From the IMG/VR virus record IMGVR_UViG_3300044961_000497, positions 1 through 36,717 of that record: DNA of 36,717 nt; one strand, 5' to 3'. Shown in pieces: positions 286-36,717 of this stretch (within the stretch, counting starts at the first letter, position 1; each line of letters starts with the position of its first letter). The position numbers were made by a program, and so were the translations under genes. The notes beneath the pieces were generated by a model. That model ran no database searches, was not told the DNA's origin, and saw only the letters and a program-made list of their open reading frames with translations. The stretch is from a virus.

Positions 286-314
286 TTGACAAATTCGCGA
301 GAAAGACCGATATT
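286..314 (+). promoter_or_regulatory. Early sigma70-type promoter
   Basis: TTGACA at 286-291, a 17-bp spacer, then GATATT at 309-314. Transcription would start near 321, giving a leader of about 18 nt before the ATG at 339. Two other promoters in the window (minus strand at 3461-3489, plus strand at 4101-4129) have the same TTGAC-N17-GATA architecture, and two of the three are preceded by CCTA. Confidence 0.7.
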
Positions 315-338
315 GGACCACGTTAACCTAATACTACT

Positions 339-653
339 ATGCAAACCAAAAGCTACAGCCAAGCACAGAAAGACTACATCCTCGAAAACCTCGAGGAGGT
401 AGACATCGAACGGCACGTGAAGTTTTTCTTGAATGATTACTTTTCATTCAAGGATGTAGGTTTCTACTTCACGGACATCAAACCTTATGACGCGCTCAAG
501 GCCTTAGACCCCTTCATGCTCGAGCGCGCCCGTGAGGATGAGCGTCGCTCCCTCATCGAGGGAGGGGAAGTTGTCGAAGTCGACGGCCGCCTCTACTACT
601 CACGGGAGGTCCGCGAGTTACTCGCGGGATTTGAGGAAGAAGAATTAGCCTAA
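339..653 (+). CDS. Early phage protein, paralogue family member 1
   Basis: A 104-residue acidic protein of unknown function. It shares a core with the products at 1212-1601 and 2084-2389: an N-terminal helix starting with a Gln-rich or Ser-rich segment, then a V/L-D-I-E-R-like stretch, a YSF/YTF-xx-VG motif, F-x-Y/F-x-x-x-x-P, and a C-terminal V-E-V/I-x-x-x-L-Y segment followed by a Glu-rich end. Here the motifs are VDIERH (about residues 21-26), YFSFKDVG and EVVEVDGRLYY. The start follows TTAACCTAATACTACT, a leader type shared by the early genes. It is first in a three-gene operon behind the promoter at 286-314. No domain assignment is offered. Confidence 0.85.
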   Translation: MQTKSYSQAQKDYILENLEEVDIERHVKFFLNDYFSFKDVGFYFTDIKPYDALKALDPFMLERAREDERRSLIEGGEVVEVDGRLYYSREVRELLAGFEEEELA

Positions 654-701
654 CCTTAACCTTAACCTAACCTACAACACTAACCTTAACCTAACACTAC
701 C
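651..701 (+). promoter_or_regulatory. G-free TTAACC-repeat leader
   Basis: The 51 bases from the stop codon of the first gene to the next ATG contain no G. They consist of repeats of TTAACC/TAACCT and end in AACACTACC immediately before ATG. A Shine-Dalgarno sequence is impossible here, and the RNA should be essentially unstructured. The overlap of the stop codon with the first TAACC unit is also present at 1155. Confidence 0.85.
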
Positions 702-1157
702 ATGCAAACCATAGTAAACACAAAAGACAGCACCCTCCACGTAACCCGCGCCGAAAACGGCGCCGTCCTCGAGGTCCAAGACCTAGGCCTTGCTCGACAG
801 GCCAAGGTTCGCAGGATCGAGGACCCGGCCCACATCCTCCAAGTCGCGCGGAAGTGGGCAAGGGAGAAAGGCGCTCCAGAAATTCGCTCAGAACATGCCG
901 GCATGGTAGCCAATGCCTACGGCTACCCGGCATCCACCGAGGCTGTCATCGTGGTTGCCTGGCCGGATGGCCGGGCTTGGCTCAAACTTCGCCGCATCGA
1001 TGGCAAAAAGCATACCAAGACTTGGCATATCCGCGCCTTAACTGGCGTTGATGGATACATGGACGCCCGGCGCAAGCCGGAAAACCAGGCCGCAGCGGAG
1101 GCGGCCATAATCGCCTACGCGGCGGAGCAACTTCGGGAGGCGGAACAACTAGCTTAA
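702..1157 (+). CDS. Early phage protein of unknown function
   Basis: A 151-residue protein that I do not recognise. The middle (about residues 60-120) has alternating hydrophobic strands and a basic segment, KLRRIDGKKHTKTWHIRAL. The C-terminus is a long Ala/Glu helix, AAAEAAIIAYAAEQLREAEQ. No membrane segment or signal peptide is visible. The start codon follows the G-free leader with ACTACCATG. It sits between two members of the early paralogue family and is presumably co-transcribed with them, so a role in early host takeover or regulation is an inference from position only. Confidence 0.85.
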   Translation: MQTIVNTKDSTLHVTRAENGAVLEVQDLGLARQAKVRRIEDPAHILQVARKWAREKGAPEIRSEHAGMVANAYGYPASTEAVIVVAWPDGRAWLKLRRIDGKKHTKTWHIRALTGVDGYMDARRKPENQAAAEAAIIAYAAEQLREAEQLA

Positions 1158-1211
1158 CCTTAACCTACACACTAACCTTAACCTTAACTTTAACCTTAAC
1201 CCAATACTATT
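1155..1211 (+). promoter_or_regulatory. G-free TTAACC-repeat leader
   Basis: A second leader without a single G, from the stop codon at 1155 to the ATG at 1212. It contains about five TTAACC-like units and ends in CAATACTATT before ATG. It is a diverged copy of the leader at 651-701. Confidence 0.85.
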
Positions 1212-1601
1212 ATGAAAAACTACACACAAAAACAACTCGAATACATTAGGCGGAACGTTGCAATGGTCGATATCGAGCGCCTTTACGACCGGATGCTGGA
1301 TGAATGTTATTCGTTCCGTTCTGTCGGCGGTCCTTTTGAATACCTCCAACCTTCCCACGTATTAGCAAAAGCGGACGAAACGGCATACCTGTGCGGACTG
1401 GCTGACTACCAAGACAGTCTCGCCCAGGAACGCGATTATGTAGAGATTGACGGCGATTTGTACGCCGTTGATGATATTGAGGAAGCGCTCGAAGAGTTTG
1501 AAGACGAGGAGGACGAAGACGAGGAGGACGAAGACGAAGACGAAGACGAAGACGAAGACGAAGACGAAGACGAGGAGGACGAGGAGGACGAGGAAGTCTA
1601 A
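1212..1601 (+). CDS. Early paralogue family member 2 with polyacidic tail
   Basis: A 129-residue protein. Residues about 1-95 match the family of the products at 339-653 and 2084-2389: VDIERLYDRML, YSFRSVGGPFEYLQPSHVL and the C-terminal YVEIDGDLY. The last 35 or so residues are almost entirely Asp and Glu, encoded by an expanding GACGAA/GACGAGGAG repeat. The tail could mimic DNA charge and block a DNA-binding host or defence protein, but repeat slippage alone could also explain it. It is the last gene of the operon, with a strong terminator 19 bases after the stop codon. Confidence 0.87.
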   Translation: MKNYTQKQLEYIRRNVAMVDIERLYDRMLDECYSFRSVGGPFEYLQPSHVLAKADETAYLCGLADYQDSLAQERDYVEIDGDLYAVDDIEEALEEFEDEEDEDEEDEDEDEDEDEDEDEDEEDEEDEEV

Positions 1602-1619
1602 GGTTATGCGCTCCGTTCA

Positions 1620-1645
1620 GCCCCGCCTTTCGGCGGGGCTTTTTT
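1620..1645 (+). terminator. Rho-independent terminator of the early plus operon
   Basis: A perfect 8-bp stem, GCCCCGCC/GGCGGGGC, with a TTTC loop, followed by six T. A near-identical stem in the opposite orientation lies at 1790-1816, so the two operons are closed by inverted copies of one terminator. Confidence 0.95.
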
Positions 1646-1647
1646 AT

Positions 1648-1699
1648 GCCCGGCCAGCTCGCCCGGCCAGCTCGCCCGGCCTGATCGCCCGGCCTGATC
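1648..1699. repeat. 13-bp tandem repeat, four copies
   Basis: Two copies of GCCCGGCCAGCTC followed by two copies of GCCCGGCCTGATC, head to tail, directly after the plus-strand terminator and before the first iteron. No gene is present. Confidence 0.9.
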
Positions 1700-1714
1700 G
1701 CCGTGGCCAGTCCT

Positions 1715-1784
1715 CTCCTACCAAGGGAATTTGAGCGCTCCCCTACCAAGGGAATTTGAGCGCTCCCCTACCAAGGGAATTTAG
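1715..1784. repeat. Iteron cluster A, three copies
   Basis: Three copies of a unit with core CTACCAAGGGAATTT, at a regular 25-bp period (cores start at 1718, 1743 and 1768). A weaker copy, CCCTATCGTAGGAATTTAGG, lies at 1832-1851 and covers the stop codon of the minus gene. Related units recur at 3962-4080 and 4863-4905. Iteron-like repeats of this kind are typically bound by a replication initiator or repressor. No such protein is proven here. Confidence 0.8.
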
Positions 1785-1789
1785 GCACG

Positions 1790-1816
1790 AAAAAACCCCG
1801 CCGAAAGGCGGGGTTT
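1790..1816 (-). terminator. Rho-independent terminator of the minus early operon
   Basis: On the minus strand, CCCCGCC-TTTC-GGCGGGG followed by six T. It faces the terminator at 1620-1645. The 145 bases between them carry the 13-bp repeats and iteron cluster A and should be largely free of read-through from either side. Confidence 0.93.
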
Positions 1817-1833
1817 CGCATGTCTTGCTGTCC

Positions 1834-2091
1834 CTATCGTAGGAATTTAGGTAAGCGGAACTTCATAGGCCGCCGTGGTTTCTGTTTCCGTTTCTCATCG
1901 ACTGGCTTTGGCAAATCGTCGTCCATAAGTCGCAGAAGGTGAAGCGCTTCCATACTCTCCAGGTATTCCTTTCGGCGAGTTTCCAACTCGGGAAAGAGAC
2001 TGGCGAGGTAGTCGCCTACGGTTGGGAATTGAAGCGCAAGTCGTGCCCTCCAGCGGAGGCCGTCGATGGGAAGTTGTTCCAAGTTAGCCAT
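1834..2091 (-). CDS. Small basic protein of unknown function
   Basis: An 85-residue protein. The N-terminal two thirds look helical (RLALQFPTVGDYLASLF, EYLESMEALHLLRLMD). The C-terminus is a lysine/arginine/proline-rich tail (KRKQKPRRPMKFRLPKFLR) that could bind nucleic acid. Its start overlaps the stop of the upstream gene (ATGGCTAA), which suggests translational coupling. It is the last gene of the minus early operon, and its stop codon lies within a degenerate iteron at 1832-1851. Function unknown. Confidence 0.75.
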   Translation of the reverse strand: MANLEQLPIDGLRWRARLALQFPTVGDYLASLFPELETRRKEYLESMEALHLLRLMDDDLPKPVDEKRKQKPRRPMKFRLPKFLR

Positions 2092-2389
2092 TGGTAGCCT
2101 CCTCCAATTCGTTGAGAAGGTTTTCGACTTCGCTTTTCCAATAAAGGTCTTCGCCTACTTCGACCGCTTCGCCTTCCTCGAGAAGGAAGTTCCTTTGTTC
2201 AATTAGAGCCTCTTTGTACCCTATCGGATCCATTTCCCGAAAAACCTGGGAGGGAAGCATATACGCGAACGGTCCTCCTACGTTGTCGAACGTGTAGGTG
2301 TCATCCATTAGCTCGTCCAAGTAATGCTGGAGGCACACGGGAGCCAGTTCCGCTTGAATGCGCTCGATTTGTGCTTGTGTTAGTTGCAT
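2084..2389 (-). CDS. Early paralogue family member 3
   Basis: A 101-residue acidic protein, homologous over its length to the products at 339-653 and 1212-1601: a helix with QIERIQAEL, a YTFDNVGGPFAYMLPSQVF segment and AVEVGEDLYWKSEVENLL near the end. I chose the ATG at 2389 over the one at 2428 because it follows the conserved AATACTACC motif and a TAACC-rich leader. Family members therefore occur on both strands in two facing operons. Role unknown. Confidence 0.85.
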   Translation of the reverse strand: MQLTQAQIERIQAELAPVCLQHYLDELMDDTYTFDNVGGPFAYMLPSQVFREMDPIGYKEALIEQRNFLLEEGEAVEVGEDLYWKSEVENLLNELEEATNG

Positions 2390-2424
2390 GGTAGTATTGA
2401 GGTTAAAGGTTAAAGGTCGAAGGT

Positions 2425-3414
2425 TCACGCCTCCCGCATAGGCATAAGGATGCCAAGCTCCTTTGTGTGCCTGTTCCGGAAGCGTAGCGCCTTCTCGGCG
2501 CTTTCAATGGCAAACTCTTGGCACCAGTCGCCAGTTAGTAAATCGGCGAGGAGGCGGAGGTTCAAGCACACGCGAATGTCGGGGTGGTCGGTCGGGGAGG
2601 TAAGGAAGGTTATGCTCCCCGCTGACAACGTCATGACGCCGTTCTGCACTTCCAGGATGACGCGGGAAATGACTGCTTTCCGGCCTTTTGCCAACTCTTC
2701 CTTTAGGTATCCAAAGCTTGCTGCAGTTTCCGCCTGTGCGGCTTTCACACACTTGCGCAATTCCTTCTCCTTCCAAGGCCAGGGAAAGAAAGACACTTCG
2801 CTCTTCGGCAACACGTTGCGCCACGGCGGGAAAAGTGCGTTGCCATAACTGGCTTGTGCGGAGAAGGAGCCAAAGCTCCAGGCAAATCCGGAAGCGTATA
2901 GGTGCAAGTTTTCCGTGTCCGGAAGACCCGGCAACTCACCACGAATAAGAATTTCTTTGACCAGTCCGGGGATTGCCTCCTCCCGCGTGAAAAGGCCTGA
3001 TGATCGAACTGCCGTAATCGCCGTTGGCGAAACTTCAATGTAGAACATGCCTTCCCGCATGCTATGGACGGCAACGTTCGCGCAAAGTGGACGGAGGTTT
3101 GGACGGCGGAGAGACGCCGTGTATTCCCCGAGAACAGGCATTTGCCAGTCCACCGCCTCGCCGAAAGGGAAGGCCTTCCCCGCTATAAATAGCTCGTTTT
3201 CCGTTAACTCGGCTTCCCGAGAGGCACTTAGGAACGGCATGACGGCATCCAAGTCTACCTCCCGCACGGGGCGAGAAGCGTCATACTCGCCAAGCCAAAT
3301 GACGGAGTTGTCCACCCCTCCCGCTGCGAGGAGGCAGTTAGGTTGCGCGAAGAGGCGCTTAGCCTCAATCGCGCGGGCGTAGCTGAACAGTTTGCGAATA
3401 TCGGACGTTTTCAT
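2425..3414 (-). CDS. Possible diverged DNA polymerase sliding clamp (DnaN-like)
   Basis: A 329-residue protein, close to the usual length of a bacterial beta clamp (about 365). The suggestive features are the C-terminus LGILMPMREA, which resembles the VVMPMRL end of DnaN, and the preceding strands. RKAVISRVILEVQNGVMTLSA resembles the clamp repeat in which a restored or shared residue precedes 'vlle..dg.l.l.atd', and LLADLLTGDWCQEFAIESAEKALRFRN resembles the final domain. The first 200 residues are not recognisable. The start at 3414 is chosen because ACACTACC precedes it; an in-frame ATG at 3489 would lie within the promoter. If correct, it would tether the phage polymerase encoded at 10373-12265. 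This is a weak-similarity call that needs profile or structure comparison. Confidence 0.5.
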   Translation of the reverse strand: MKTSDIRKLFSYARAIEAKRLFAQPNCLLAAGGVDNSVIWLGEYDASRPVREVDLDAVMPFLSASREAELTENELFIAGKAFPFGEAVDWQMPVLGEYTASLRRPNLRPLCANVAVHSMREGMFYIEVSPTAITAVRSSGLFTREEAIPGLVKEILIRGELPGLPDTENLHLYASGFAWSFGSFSAQASYGNALFPPWRNVLPKSEVSFFPWPWKEKELRKCVKAAQAETAASFGYLKEELAKGRKAVISRVILEVQNGVMTLSAGSITFLTSPTDHPDIRVCLNLRLLADLLTGDWCQEFAIESAEKALRFRNRHTKELGILMPMREA

Positions 3415-3431
3415 GGTAGTGTGTAGGTTAG

Positions 3432-3451
3432 CAGAGGCGGATTTGCCTCTG
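3432..3451 (-). promoter_or_regulatory. Hairpin in the leader of the clamp-like gene
   Basis: A perfect 7-bp inverted repeat, CAGAGGC/GCCTCTG, with a 6-base loop, located between the promoter at 3461-3489 and the start codon at 3414. It is not followed by a T run, so it is more likely an operator or an RNA stem than a terminator. Confidence 0.55.
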
Positions 3452-3460
3452 ACGTTGCGG

Positions 3461-3489
3461 ACTATCGACCGTTTTCGTTCAAATGTCAA
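3461..3489 (-). promoter_or_regulatory. Sigma70-type promoter of the minus early operon
   Basis: On the minus strand, AACCTATTGACA (the -35 is 3489-3484), a 17-bp spacer and GATAGT (3466-3461). It matches the promoters at 286-314 and 4101-4129. Transcription would begin near 3455, leaving a leader of about 40 nt that contains the hairpin at 3432-3451. Confidence 0.75.
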
Positions 3490-3586
3490 TAGGTTATTTT
3501 AGCCTCTCTGCGTAAATAGCTAAACGGCAACGGTTTGCGGGGCGAAAAAATTTTTGTGGGTAGCCTGGAAGGGGACAAAAGCCTAG

Positions 3587-3935
3587 TCGTCCGCCCGTCC
3601 GCCCGTCCGCCCGTCCGCCCGTCCGCCCGTCCGCCCGTCCGCCCGTCCACCCGTCCACCCGTCCACCCGTCCATCCCCCGCCCGTCCGCCCGTCCGCTCG
3701 CCGTGGCCCGTCCATCCCCCCGCCCGTCCACCCGTCCACCCGTCCACCCGTCCACCCGTCCACCCGTCCGCCCGTCCACCCGTCCACCCGTCCGCCCGTC
3801 CACCCGTCCGCCCGTCCACCCGTCCACCCGTCCGCCCGTCCGCCCGTCCACCCGTCCATCCCCCGCCCGTCCGCCCGTCCGCCCGTCCGCCCGTCCACCC
3901 GTCCACCCGTCCGCCCGTCCGCCCGTCCGCCCGCC
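3587..3935. repeat. 8-bp tandem array (CCCGTCCG/CCCGTCCA)
   Basis: About forty copies of an 8-bp unit, CCCGTCC followed by G or A, with interruptions near 3670-3680, 3695-3725 and 3858-3866. The array lies between the divergent promoters of the minus early operon and the replication operon. Several frames are open through it, but they encode only repeats with no plausible start, so I regard them as spurious. It is unrelated in sequence to the 18-bp terminal array. Confidence 0.93.
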
Positions 3936-3957
3936 AGGCACGGGGTGATACTGCGAC

Positions 3958-4080
3958 ACCCCTACCGTGGGAAATTGAAGACCACTACCGTGGGAAATTG
4001 ACGCTCGTCGAAGCCACCCCTACCGTGGGAAAATGAAGACCCCTACCGTGGGAAAATGAAGACCCCTACCGTGGGAAATC
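3958..4080. repeat. Iteron cluster B, five copies
   Basis: Five copies of CCCCTACCGTGGGAAATTGA or close variants. Cores start at 3962, 3985, 4020, 4043 and 4066, so the spacing is 23 bp except for one 35-bp gap. The cluster ends about 20 bases upstream of the -35 box of the replication operon. It is a candidate operator or replication origin, with the same core as cluster A but GTGGG instead of AAGGG. Confidence 0.85.
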
Positions 4081-4100
4081 GAAAAAGTTCAGAAAAGTTA

Positions 4101-4129
4101 TTGACGCGCCTGCGAGCGTCTTCGATAGT
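4101..4129 (+). promoter_or_regulatory. Promoter of the replication operon
   Basis: TTGACG at 4101-4106, a 17-bp spacer and GATAGT at 4124-4129. Transcription would begin near 4136, about 22 nt before the ATG at 4158. Iteron cluster B abuts it upstream, so a protein binding the iterons could regulate it. Confidence 0.7.
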
Positions 4130-4157
4130 CGAGCGCGATCAAAGTAACACTACCACA

Positions 4158-4256
4158 ATGACCACACTATCATACGTCTTCGCGGGCGTGCTCATACTGC
4201 TCGTCGTGATCGCCGTAATCGGCGTGATCCTCTTCGATTCGCAAGGACCGCAATGA
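4158..4256 (+). CDS. Single-span membrane microprotein
   Basis: A 32-residue product with one hydrophobic helix (about residues 5-25, VFAGVLILLVVIAVIGVILF) and a short polar end. The ATG at 4158 is favoured over an upstream in-frame ATG at 4056 because that one lies inside the iterons, upstream of the promoter. The start context is AACACTACCACA-ATG. Its stop codon overlaps the next start (ATGA). It is first in the replication operon. The role is unknown; a membrane anchor for replication or a host-targeting peptide are both possible. Confidence 0.6.
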   Translation: MTTLSYVFAGVLILLVVIAVIGVILFDSQGPQ

Positions 4257-4696
4257 AAGGGCTGCCGAAACAAGTTGTTCTCATGAATCGGGTCGGGGCG
4301 TACTTCCCCGGACAGCTTCCCCTGTCGCCGGAGCGCATCGCACTCCTGAATAGCCTTGGGGCGTACTTCCCGGGGCAGACGCCGATGCCACACCACAAGA
4401 TTGTCGAGCCGCCTCCGCCCTCGACGAAGGCATACTGCGCGTCGCCACGAAGCAGACCGTTGCTTCGAAATCGAAAGAAGCGCATCCTCGAGGCTGTCGT
4501 GCCAATAGTCCGCGATATGCCCGCCGGGACCAAGTTCTTCCCGATAGACATTGCAAAGCAGTTGGGTGAACCTACCCGCGTAGTTGCACACCTGCTGCGG
4601 CAGGTCGAAGGTGTCGAACACCTTGGGAACGTGCGGCACCCAAAGCTGAACGTGCCGCTGACCTGCTTCAGGCGCAAAAGAGAAACAGTCAAATGA
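4253..4696 (+). CDS. Unknown protein with an internal LGAYFPGQ repeat and a helical C-terminal domain
   Basis: A 147-residue basic protein that I do not recognise. Residues about 10-45 contain a tandem peptide repeat: LMNRVGAYFPGQLPL, then LLNSLGAYFPGQTPM. After a proline-rich linker (PPPPSTK), residues about 75-140 are predicted-helical with a winged-helix flavour (KKRILEAVVPIVRDMPAGTKFFPIDIAKQLGEPTRVVAHLL). This suggests DNA binding, possibly at the iterons a few hundred bases upstream. That function is inference. It is coupled by ATGA overlaps to both neighbours. Confidence 0.75.
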   Translation: MKGLPKQVVLMNRVGAYFPGQLPLSPERIALLNSLGAYFPGQTPMPHHKIVEPPPPSTKAYCASPRSRPLLRNRKKRILEAVVPIVRDMPAGTKFFPIDIAKQLGEPTRVVAHLLRQVEGVEHLGNVRHPKLNVPLTCFRRKRETVK

Positions 4697-4929
4697 TCAT
4701 CGCGACCGATCTGAAGACCGGCGTCACCCTCGACGAGGACGCCCGCATTTGCACCTCGGACGGACGGCTTCTTGGCTACAAGACGGACGAGGGTTTCCTT
4801 CCGTGTGAGCCAGCACTTCCGCTGTCAGAGGAGCTGCTGCGCGCCATCGTCAGGGTGACCCTCCTACCAGTGGAAAAAGCGCCCCACTATCGTGGGAAAA
4901 TGAAAATACGTATTGCCACCGGCTCATAA
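4693..4929 (+). CDS. Small unknown protein whose 3' end carries iteron copies
   Basis: A 78-residue protein without recognised domains. The first 55 residues look like a normal folded peptide (TDLKTGVTLDEDARICTSDGRLLGYK). The last 24 are encoded by DNA containing two iteron-like units (4863-4905), so the C-terminus may be dictated by the binding site rather than by protein function. It overlaps the previous gene by ATGA and ends 24 bases before the HTH gene. Confidence 0.65.
   Translation: MIIATDLKTGVTLDEDARICTSDGRLLGYKTDEGFLPCEPALPLSEELLRAIVRVTLLPVEKAPHYRGKMKIRIATGS
4860..4908. repeat. Iteron cluster C, two copies inside a gene
   Basis: CTCCTACCAGTGGAAAAA and CCCACTATCGTGGGAAAATG, cores 24 bp apart. 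They match the iterons at 3958-4080 but lie within the 3' end of the 4693-4929 reading frame, upstream of the HTH gene. Confidence 0.7.
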
Positions 4930-4953
4930 ACCTGCAAGTTCTGTGCCACTACC

Positions 4954-5133
4954 ATGAAATACCAAAAGATGACACCAGAAGAGCGCGCCGCTTGGCGTCG
5001 CTCTCGTCGGAGCAAGACAACGAAAGCCATTGAGGCCGATTTGCTTCTTGGCGTGCTGAGTCAAAGCGAGATTGCCCGGAAGTATGGGGTTACCCGTCAG
5101 TGGGTTGCAGCGATCAAGAAGCGCGGCGCATGA
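4954..5133 (+). CDS. Small helix-turn-helix DNA-binding protein
   Basis: A 59-residue basic protein. Residues about 34-57, VLSQSEIARKYGVTRQWVAAIKKR, form a clear helix-turn-helix with the usual A-R-K-Y-G-V turn. The N-terminus is Arg/Lys-rich. It starts in a strong ACTACCATGAAA context and ends in an ATGA overlap with the primase-helicase. It is a candidate for the protein that binds the iterons around 3960-4080 and 4863-4905, or a replication accessory factor. The evidence for the HTH is good, for the target none. Confidence 0.8.
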   Translation: MKYQKMTPEERAAWRRSRRSKTTKAIEADLLLGVLSQSEIARKYGVTRQWVAAIKKRGA

Positions 5134-7692: not shown

Positions 7693-8280
7693 ATGAAAAT
7701 AACAATCGAAGTCGATCTGTCAGAAACAAAGCTTCAGCAGCTGCTCAAGCTGCTTGCCAACGCCGAGGCTCCGGTCGAGAAGCCCGCACAGGCTCCGGTC
7801 GAAGAGGAGCAACACACTTTCGAGGTGGTGCCTGCGGCTACGCCGGAAGCACCCGCGAAGCGCCGTGGCAGGCCGAAGAAGGTAGAGGCTGAGGCTCCGG
7901 CACCGGTCGCTGAGGCTCCGGCACCGGTCGCTGAGGCTCCTGCACCGGTCGCTGAGGCTCCTGCTCCGGTCGCTGAGGCTCCTGCTCCGGTCGCTGAGGC
8001 TCCTGCTCCGGTCCCGGCTCCTGCCCCCGCACCGGTCGCTGAGGCTCCTGCTCCGGTCCCTGCCCCCGCACCTGCTCCCGCACCAGTCACTGAGGCTCCT
8101 GCTCCGACCCATGACCACAAGGCCACCATGGTGCTCGTGATGAACGAAGCTCGCCGGATCATCGATGCAGGTAAACAAGACGTGCTCGCACAAGCCCTGA
8201 AGGATCGCGGCATCACGCGCACCTCGCTCTGCCCTCCTGAGAAGTCAGCCGAACTGCTCGCGTTCCTCAAGACCGTCTGA
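7693..8280 (+). CDS. AT-hook protein with EAPAPVA repeats
   Basis: A 195-residue protein in three parts. An N-terminal segment (MKITIEVDLSETKLQQLLKLL) is followed by an AT-hook, KRRGRPKK (about residues 55-62). Next comes a low-complexity region of EAPAPVA heptads and PAPAP variants, encoded by 21-bp repeats. The last 45 residues form a helical domain (AGKQDVLAQALKDRGITRTSLCPPEKSAELLAFLKTV). The same three-part plan is common in phage genomes beside single-strand binding proteins and is sometimes mis-annotated as an rRNA biogenesis protein. It probably binds DNA during replication or recombination. The ATG at 7693 is chosen because the protein proper begins there. Confidence 0.85.
   Translation: MKITIEVDLSETKLQQLLKLLANAEAPVEKPAQAPVEEEQHTFEVVPAATPEAPAKRRGRPKKVEAEAPAPVAEAPAPVAEAPAPVAEAPAPVAEAPAPVAEAPAPVPAPAPAPVAEAPAPVPAPAPAPAPVTEAPAPTHDHKATMVLVMNEARRIIDAGKQDVLAQALKDRGITRTSLCPPEKSAELLAFLKTV
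7890..8106. repeat. 21-bp coding repeat (EAPAPVA)
   Basis: Tandem GAGGCTCCTGCTCCGGTCGCT-type units within the AT-hook gene, giving about seven EAPAPVA/EAPAPVP copies interspersed with PAPAP. Units differ mostly at synonymous positions, indicating recent expansion under protein-level constraint. Confidence 0.9.
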
Positions 8281-9497: not shown

Positions 9498-9508
9498 GAC
9501 TAAATACC

Positions 9509-10093
9509 ATGAAAAACGTGAATGTCCAAGTAGTCATCCAGAACGTCCGCCTGAGCTTCCCGTGCTTGTTCAATCCACGGGTTTCGCCGGGTGCTGAAGC
9601 CGGAGCCAAGCCGAAGTACTCTGCTTCGTTCTTGCTTCACAAGAAGAACAATGCTGATGCGATCAAAGCCCTTACGGCAGCAATGCAGAAAGTGCTCGAA
9701 GAGAAGGGTGTGAAGCCCGCGCAACTGAGGAGCAAGTGCCTGCGCGAAGCGGTCGAAGTGGTCTCCTCCGAGACGGGCGAGCCGTACGCCGGATACGATG
9801 CCGACCATGTGGTTCTCTCCACCTCGTCAGTTGAGCGCATCATCGTCTGCGACCAAAGGAACAACCCTGTCACGGAGGAGGATAATCTGTTCTACGCCGG
9901 GTGCTACGTTGACGCAGCGGTGAACATTTACCTCTACGACAAGGTACCCGCTCACGGCAAGCGTCTCGTGGCACAGCTGACGCACGTGCGTTTCCGCCGA
10001 GACGGTGAAGCCTTCGGCGCGAAGAAGAAGGATGCCGCACAAGTGTTCGGCGCACCGGTCGAGGAGGAGAACGCTTCCGAGGGACTCCTATGA
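9509..10093 (+). CDS. Single-stranded DNA-binding protein, DUF2815/Enc34 family
   Basis: A 194-residue protein with the family's features: an N-terminal strand pair VVIQNVRLSFPCLFNP, PKYSASFLLHKKN, a central KALTAAMQKVLEE helix, DNLFYAGCYVDAAVNIYLYD, and a C-terminal acidic tail (VEEENASEGLL) typical of phage single-strand binding proteins that dock partner proteins. It coats single strands for the polymerase and nuclease encoded beside it. The start is preceded by AAATACC. The stop overlaps the next start (ATGA). Confidence 0.92.
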   Translation: MKNVNVQVVIQNVRLSFPCLFNPRVSPGAEAGAKPKYSASFLLHKKNNADAIKALTAAMQKVLEEKGVKPAQLRSKCLREAVEVVSSETGEPYAGYDADHVVLSTSSVERIIVCDQRNNPVTEEDNLFYAGCYVDAAVNIYLYDKVPAHGKRLVAQLTHVRFRRDGEAFGAKKKDAAQVFGAPVEEENASEGLL

Positions 10094-36362: not shown

Positions 36363-36417
36363 TGCCAGGAATTTTACTGGCTAACCCTTTGACGGATAGC
36401 CATTTACGCAGTTTGCG

Positions 36418-36717
36418 CTCGACCAGCGGGGCCGGCTCGACCAGCGGGGCCGGCTCGACCAGCGGGGCCGGCTCGACCAGCGGGGCCGGCTCGACCAGCG
36501 GGGCCGGCTCGACCAGCGGGGCCGGCTCGACCAGCGGGGCCGGATCGACCAGCAGGGCCGGATCGACCAGCAGGGCCGGCTCGACCAGCGGGGCCGGATC
36601 GACCAGCAGGGCCGGCTCGACCAGCGGGGCCGGCTCGACCAGCGGGGCCGGCTCGACCAGCGGGGCCGGCTCGACCAGCGGGGCCGGCTCGACCAGCGGG
36701 GCCGGCTCGACCAGCAG
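36418..36717. repeat. 18-bp GC-rich tandem array, right end
   Basis: About 17 copies of the unit found at 1-212, with the same variants. The final 8 bases (ACCAGCAG) equal the first 8 of the window, consistent with a circular assembly cut inside the array. Confidence 0.95.

Follow-up and report, generated by a model that had tools for sequence, protein, structure and literature searches.

The window analysed here is the whole of the IMG/VR record IMGVR_UViG_3300044961_000497 (36,717 bases), an unclassified bacterial virus in which several early genes are preceded by a G-free leader that ends at the start codon. This leader consists of the block (T)TAACC, 3 or 4 nt, YACTACY and ATG, or of the ACTACC end alone. 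It precedes early genes in three operons, and paralogous genes are present in two of these. Operon A (genes 339, 702 and 1212, named by the position of their start codons) lies on the plus strand and is convergent with operon B (genes 3414, 2389 and 2091) on the minus strand; operon C runs from gene 4158. The promoters were assigned by consensus match, and tandem arrays with Tandem Repeats Finder (TRF). The features of the region, together with gene 9509, are the following.

286-314, plus strand: predicted promoter of operon A, TTGACA-N17-GATATT (10/12 consensus matches; TATTGAC-N17-GATA is common to the promoters of operons B and C).
323-338, plus strand: G-free leader of gene 339, TTAACCTAATACTACT (read from the sequence).
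339-653, plus strand: early gene, 104 amino acids (aa), paralog of 1212 and 2389(-) (protein comparison).
649-701, plus strand: 53-nt G-free leader of gene 702, a (TTAACC)n array with an internal second leader piece, CTAACCTACAACACTA, and ACTACC at the ATG (TRF).
702-1157, plus strand: early gene, 151 aa, no family found in protein family scans.
1153-1211, plus strand: 59-nt G-free leader of gene 1212, a (TTAACC)n array with an inner TAACCTACACACTA identical to the 3414(-) leader, ending in AATACTATT-ATG (TRF).
1212-1601, plus strand: early gene, 129 aa, phrog_9294-like, with an acidic tail, paralog of 339 and 2389(-) (family scan, protein comparison).
1619-1640, plus strand: predicted intrinsic terminator of operon A, stem CCCCGCC/GGCGGGG.
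1796-1813, minus strand: terminator-like stem with the same CCCCGCCTTTCGGCGGGG sequence as 1619-1640, then T6, closing operon B (read from the sequence).
2084-2389, minus strand: early gene, 101 aa, paralog of 339 and 1212 (protein comparison).
2390-2417, minus strand: 28-nt G-free leader of gene 2389(-), ACCTTTAACCTTTAACCTCAATACTACC, period 7 (TRF).
2425-3414, minus strand: early gene, 329 aa, which opens operon B, no family found in protein family scans.
3415-3431, minus strand: 17-nt G-free leader of gene 3414(-), CTAACCTACACACTACC.
3461-3489, minus strand: predicted promoter of operon B, TTGACA-N17-GATAGT (consensus match).
4101-4129, plus strand: predicted promoter of operon C, TTGACG-N17-GATAGT (consensus match).
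4145-4157, plus strand: leader of the small gene 4158, TAACACTACCACA, with the motif displaced by 3 nt and A-3 and A-6 retained.
4946-4953, plus strand: leader of gene 4954 (59 aa, helix-turn-helix / sigma70 region 4-like), CCACTACC.
9499-9508, plus strand: weak form ACTAAATACC before gene 9509 (Gp2.5-like ssDNA-binding/annealing protein).

The ACTACC motif stands directly before ATG, in its exact form, at 702(+), 2389(-), 3414(-) and 4954(+), and as the variants ACTACT and ACTATT at 339 and 1212, respectively. At 4158 it is found 3 nt away from the start codon (ACTACC-ACA-ATG), and the weak form at 9509 reads AATACC-ATG. Allowing one mismatch, ACTACC-ATG has 13 matches in the genome as opposed to 3.69 ± 1.86 in dinucleotide shuffles, none of which (0/100) reached 13; the longer composite TAACCYNAMYACTA (up to two mismatches) gave 12 matches where 0.9 were expected, with overlaps among some of them inside the arrays. 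Six of the 38 starts counted, which the analyst picked from the open reading frame (ORF) map and not blind, have ACTA(C/T)(C/T) directly against the ATG, and none of the 952 other ATGs does (Fisher p = 2e-9). A preliminary description of this DNA had reported a leader common to at least six starts, with weaker forms at 4158 and 9509, and had named beforehand the comparison of starts with random ATGs as one that could overturn it; the leader and its weaker forms are confirmed, and the motif proves to be tied to starts.

The start codons of the paralogs are backed by alignment from the first residues. Downstream of the predicted promoters at 3489(-) and 4101(+), ATG 3414 and ATG 4158 are the first in-frame ATGs inside the transcript, and the former is further supported because the alternative TTG start at 3489 falls within the -35 element. 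For 2389(-) the sole earlier in-frame start is GTG 2428, which would overlap the neighbouring gene. Leaderless starts were set aside, the predicted promoters giving leaders of about 18-40 nt.

Upstream of the ATG the G-free run extends over 53 nt at 702 and 59 nt at 1212, and over 28, 17, 16 and 13 nt at 2389(-), 3414(-), 339 and 4158, respectively; the first two are the only G-free runs of at least 45 nt in the genome. TRF detected period-6 arrays at 651-692 and 1153-1201, corresponding to tandem (TTAACC)n, and a period-7 array at 2400-2425 in the 2389(-) leader, which bears out the G-free TTAACC-repeat leaders first described at 702 and 1212. No known RNA family in Rfam matches the leaders.

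A closer inspection of the start regions showed A at both -3 and -6 in all eight candidate starts, a pair present at just one of the 31 other chosen starts and at 4.6% of the 951 remaining ATGs; the six main starts were picked by a motif that contains both bases, and the independent weight lies with 4158 (shifted motif) and 9509 (weak form). The computed anti-Shine-Dalgarno (anti-SD) pairing energy is approximately +0.9 kcal/mol at the motif starts and -2.8 at other ATGs. The predicted minimum free energy around the motif starts is -5.5, as opposed to -13.3 at other starts (p = 0.001), and the predicted unpaired probability is 0.71 versus 0.49 (p = 5e-5); a small hairpin can be read in the 3414(-) leader only. 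The claim that SD pairing is absent at these starts is thereby borne out, and the leaders are unusually open. Initiation benefits from A-3 and A-6 both in Flavobacterium johnsoniae and in E. coli (PMC6847099), and lack of structure can by itself support SD-independent initiation (PMC3121790). SD sequences are present at other starts of the phage, including 2091(-), 28136(-), 34446(-) and some more, and further genes start inside or against the preceding gene; the phage therefore appears to mix initiation modes, the SD-free leader being mainly that of early genes.

Comparison of the leaders and of the genes behind them revealed extensive copying. The products of genes 339, 1212 and 2389(-), about 100 residues long, are paralogous (36% and 33% identity, BLASTP E = 4e-16 and 2e-10), and the 1212 protein matches phrog_9294. 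The leaders of 339 and 702 are 90% alike over 29 nt (ATGCAAACCA), a likeness that reaches into the first codons (first ten coding bases). The 14 bases TAACCTACACACTA are placed 51 nt upstream of the ATG in the 1212 leader and, identically, at -16 in the 3414(-) leader, and a near copy is contained in the 702 leader. Judged from the sequence, copies of leader pieces have thus passed from gene to gene and arisen inside single leaders, and the leader is a putative copied cassette, since its pieces recur inside other leaders. Between 339 and 1212, 14 of the last 16 leader bases are identical and the coding DNA is 56% identical, a greater preservation of leaders than of genes that fits either selection or later recopying. 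The proteins of 702, 3414 and 4954 show no detected kinship to the three paralogs.

The preliminary description had held that the motif occurs on both strands before unrelated proteins and is not inherited with the coding sequence. The presence on both strands stands; the rest is wrong in part, three of the six genes (339, 1212 and 2389(-)) being paralogs with which the leader could have travelled on duplication, and leader pieces having been copied, though the leaders outlast the coding similarity. Operons A and B have in common the promoter (TATTGACA-N17-GATAKT), the leader, a paralog and the terminator stem (CCCCGCCTTTCGGCGGGG, 1619-1640 and 1796-1813), and this suggests that they arose via inverted duplication of one transcription unit. 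Operon C opens with the same kind of promoter, and the three near-identical sigma70-type promoters, TATTGAC(A/G)-N17-GATA(G/T)T, at 286-314, 3461-3489 and 4101-4129, probably act as one coordinated set of early promoters.

Neither the 338 Verrucomicrobiota and 395 Bacteroidota genomes nor the 195 genomes of the family of Haloferula show enrichment of the exact motif, which is thus no host-wide signal in the genomes covered. Of the earlier proposal of a distinct initiation signal, perhaps host-specific, there remains a motif that is start-tied, SD-less and open, the exact sequence not being host-wide in the two phyla. Start profiles were obtained with a home-made gene caller, which on E. coli got 20 of 25 annotated plus-strand starts right. 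Few starts (3-6%) have an SD in Haloferula and in another member of the family (G004 and G035, Akkermansiaceae-family; L046-L074); these start regions hold little G and much C, which occupies -1 and -2 in about half of the starts or more, and a higher SD share (22-45%) was found in the other Verrucomicrobiota sampled (G283, G403 and G380), E. coli and Arthrospira. The motif starts of the phage outscore the average native start under both Akkermansiaceae models and the G380 model, come close to the average with the Bacteroidota models and G283, and score low with E. coli, Arthrospira and G403. The nearest tetranucleotide profile among the genomes tried is that of Haloferula (r = 0.82, a value limited by G+C content and the small sample). 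SD-poor hosts would fit this style, Haloferula-like Akkermansiaceae best among the few tested, and the general SD-poor habit may be that of the host, whereas ACTACC-ATG as a word belongs to the phage. Kinship of the polymerase, terminase, portal and capsid proteins pinpoints no host, their relatives being at most 33-47% identical and belonging to phages of many hosts, and portal relatives in Verrucomicrobiota reach 31-32% identity only. As an isolated case, a small gene of Haloferula sp. BvORR071 (L025:931-955) has the leader TTAACCTTTAACCCAAACACTACC-ATG, strikingly like that of 2389(-).

Taken together, these observations lead us to favour, with a probability just above one half (about 0.52), a phage-specific, start-associated leader for SD-independent initiation that would have been spread by duplication and lengthened by slippage. 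In this scenario the messages would start without SD pairing, the G-free leader keeping the start codon single-stranded and positioning A at -3 and -6 for use by the ribosome. Each copied leader would supply a working initiation region to the gene downstream, and its TTAACC part would have been lengthened into tandem repeats by slippage, in a genome rich in arrays. The ACTACC letters would be retained partly by common descent and partly by the requirement for A-3 and A-6, no G and no structure. From these data we infer that the leaders are part of the messages and drive their initiation, that selection, and not recent copying, keeps ACTACC, and to which group the host belongs. The leader might possibly be a phage device favouring its own messages. 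Several points weigh against this reading. Selection for openness alone need not reproduce ACTACC so exactly; the 4954 leader has only CACTACC in common with the others; and no second virus repeating the leader was found in IMG/VR, where the 12 and 22 pattern matches were nearly all away from plausible gene starts and none was repeated within one contig in the manner of this phage.

Part of the same evidence can be read as pure history, the leaders being DNA duplicated by gene duplication and short-junction recombination and expanded by slippage, with no sequence-specific role in translation. Three of the six genes are paralogs, parts of leaders reappear within leaders, the convergent operons A and B have promoter, leader, paralog and terminator stem all in common, and tandem arrays are common in the genome. 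We nevertheless hold this account to be less likely: the leaders are more similar than the coding DNA downstream, the motif also precedes genes of no detected kinship (3414, 4954, 4158 and 9509), and the ATG register, A-3/A-6 and low structure go together.

Rather improbable is a dedicated, sequence-specific SD-free signal whose reader would be the ribosome itself or a factor of phage or host origin, and which would mark an early regulon on both strands and favour or later shut off its translation. By analogy with T4 RegA, a phage or host RNA-binding protein could bind AAYACTACCAUG on several early messages and shut them off, and the motif does overlap the AUG of several early messages in unstructured RNA, like the RegA sites (PMC3014915); such an operator is improbable in turn, given that RegA sites are A+U-rich and have no such clear consensus and that no RegA-like protein was found among the early proteins scanned, some small ORFs lying outside the scan. 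A transcriptional role is very unlikely, whether as Rho-loading (rut-like) sites, suggested by the G-free, C-containing stretches directly after stop codons at 649-701 and 1153-1211, or as a DNA operator with a CTACC core, suggested by CTACC(A/G)TG in the repeats at 3957-4080, for the motif, unlike operators, holds register with the ATG, two or three leaders only are of rut length, and those repeats run on into GGGAAATTGA, which is absent at starts. A promoter for a single-subunit RNA polymerase, suggested by the likeness of the motif to ACACTATAG, was set aside in view of the ATG register, the sigma70-type promoters upstream of the three operons and the lack of such a polymerase among the proteins scanned. 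Pairing of CTACC with a stretch inside the 16S rRNA was considered as a further possibility.

In the rest of the genome, a replication module (primase-helicase, DUF2800 exonuclease, Gp2.5-like protein, DNA polymerase and DNA helicase) occupies 5-14 kb of the plus strand and siphovirus structural genes lie on the minus strand at approximately 16-35 kb. The only close relative found is a 6.3-kb fragment (L013), 99% identical over the terminase gene. No relative covering the early region was found, and in IMG/VR relatives of the 329-aa early protein, the primase-helicase and the paralog family could not be confirmed. Several other repeats could be seen. An 18-bp tandem repeat (CTCGACCAGCGGGGCCGG) is present at both record ends (1-211 and 36417-36715), which probably reflects a genome that is circular or has terminal redundancy, the join lying within this array. 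An 8-bp repeat (CGTCCGCC) appears in 43 copies at 3588-3933, in the divergent region between the promoters of operons B and C, and a short period-13 array at 1648-1702. Iteron-like repeats of 23-25 bp, CCCTACC(A/G)(A/T)GGGAAATTGA, lie close to the early operons and ahead of the primase gene (1713-1850, 3957-4080 and 4859-4903) and are candidate replication origin or operator sites. In-frame tandem repeats at 1500-1591 encode the Glu/Asp-rich tail of the 1212 protein, and others at 7888-8106 a Pro/Ala-rich segment in the gene around 7693-8280.

With respect to known systems, the T4 RegA operators resemble the phage leader as unstructured RNA sites overlapping the AUG of early genes, and differ in being A+U-rich with little consensus; no RegA relative was found among the phage proteins scanned. 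The SD-scarce Verrucomicrobiae such as Akkermansia (PMC10783764) are similarly SD-poor, and the genomes profiled resemble the leader further in their abundance of C, with C at -1 and -2, and their scarcity of G, but those genomes neither prefer A-3 nor use ACTACC. The Kozak-like, SD-independent initiation of Bacteroidota (PMC6847099) likewise combines A at -3 and -6, no SD and weak structure at the start, all of which are seen at the phage leaders too, the weak structure as a prediction; there it is a genome-wide statistical preference, whereas in this phage a few genes share an almost invariant word.

The closest likeness is with the start-associated sequences (SAS) of Cluster K mycobacteriophages and Cluster EF Microbacterium phages (PMC3203893, PMC7302621), short, unusually conserved and asymmetric sequences, of unproven role, right upstream of the starts of several genes of different families in one phage. 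The phage leader is likewise a short conserved sequence immediately upstream of several starts, and its genes are of different families (702, 3414 and 4954 are unrelated), though three of the six belong to one family. The SAS (GGGATAGGAGCCC; GGGAAAGGACCCC), however, occupies the ribosome-binding position with an SD-like core (AGGAG/AAGGA), its EF form being complementary to the 16S rRNA tail, and many SAS have an upstream extension, either inverted repeats in Cluster K (the 17-bp ESAS, at about half of the SAS genes) or a conserved GTAGAG core in EF. The phage leader is G-free, touches the ATG, has no anti-SD pairing and is extended by TTAACC tandem repeats instead. It was not filed as SAS because the defining SD-like core was looked for and is absent, and it is an SD-free variant of a SAS-like element, not itself SAS. 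The start-associated repeats described from actinobacteriophages have an SD-like core; a version without anti-SD pairing separates conservation at starts from pairing with 16S rRNA. The near-identical leaders offer a natural set for testing which bases drive SD-independent initiation, in a phage genome where leaders would be seen spreading as cassettes and growing by slippage.

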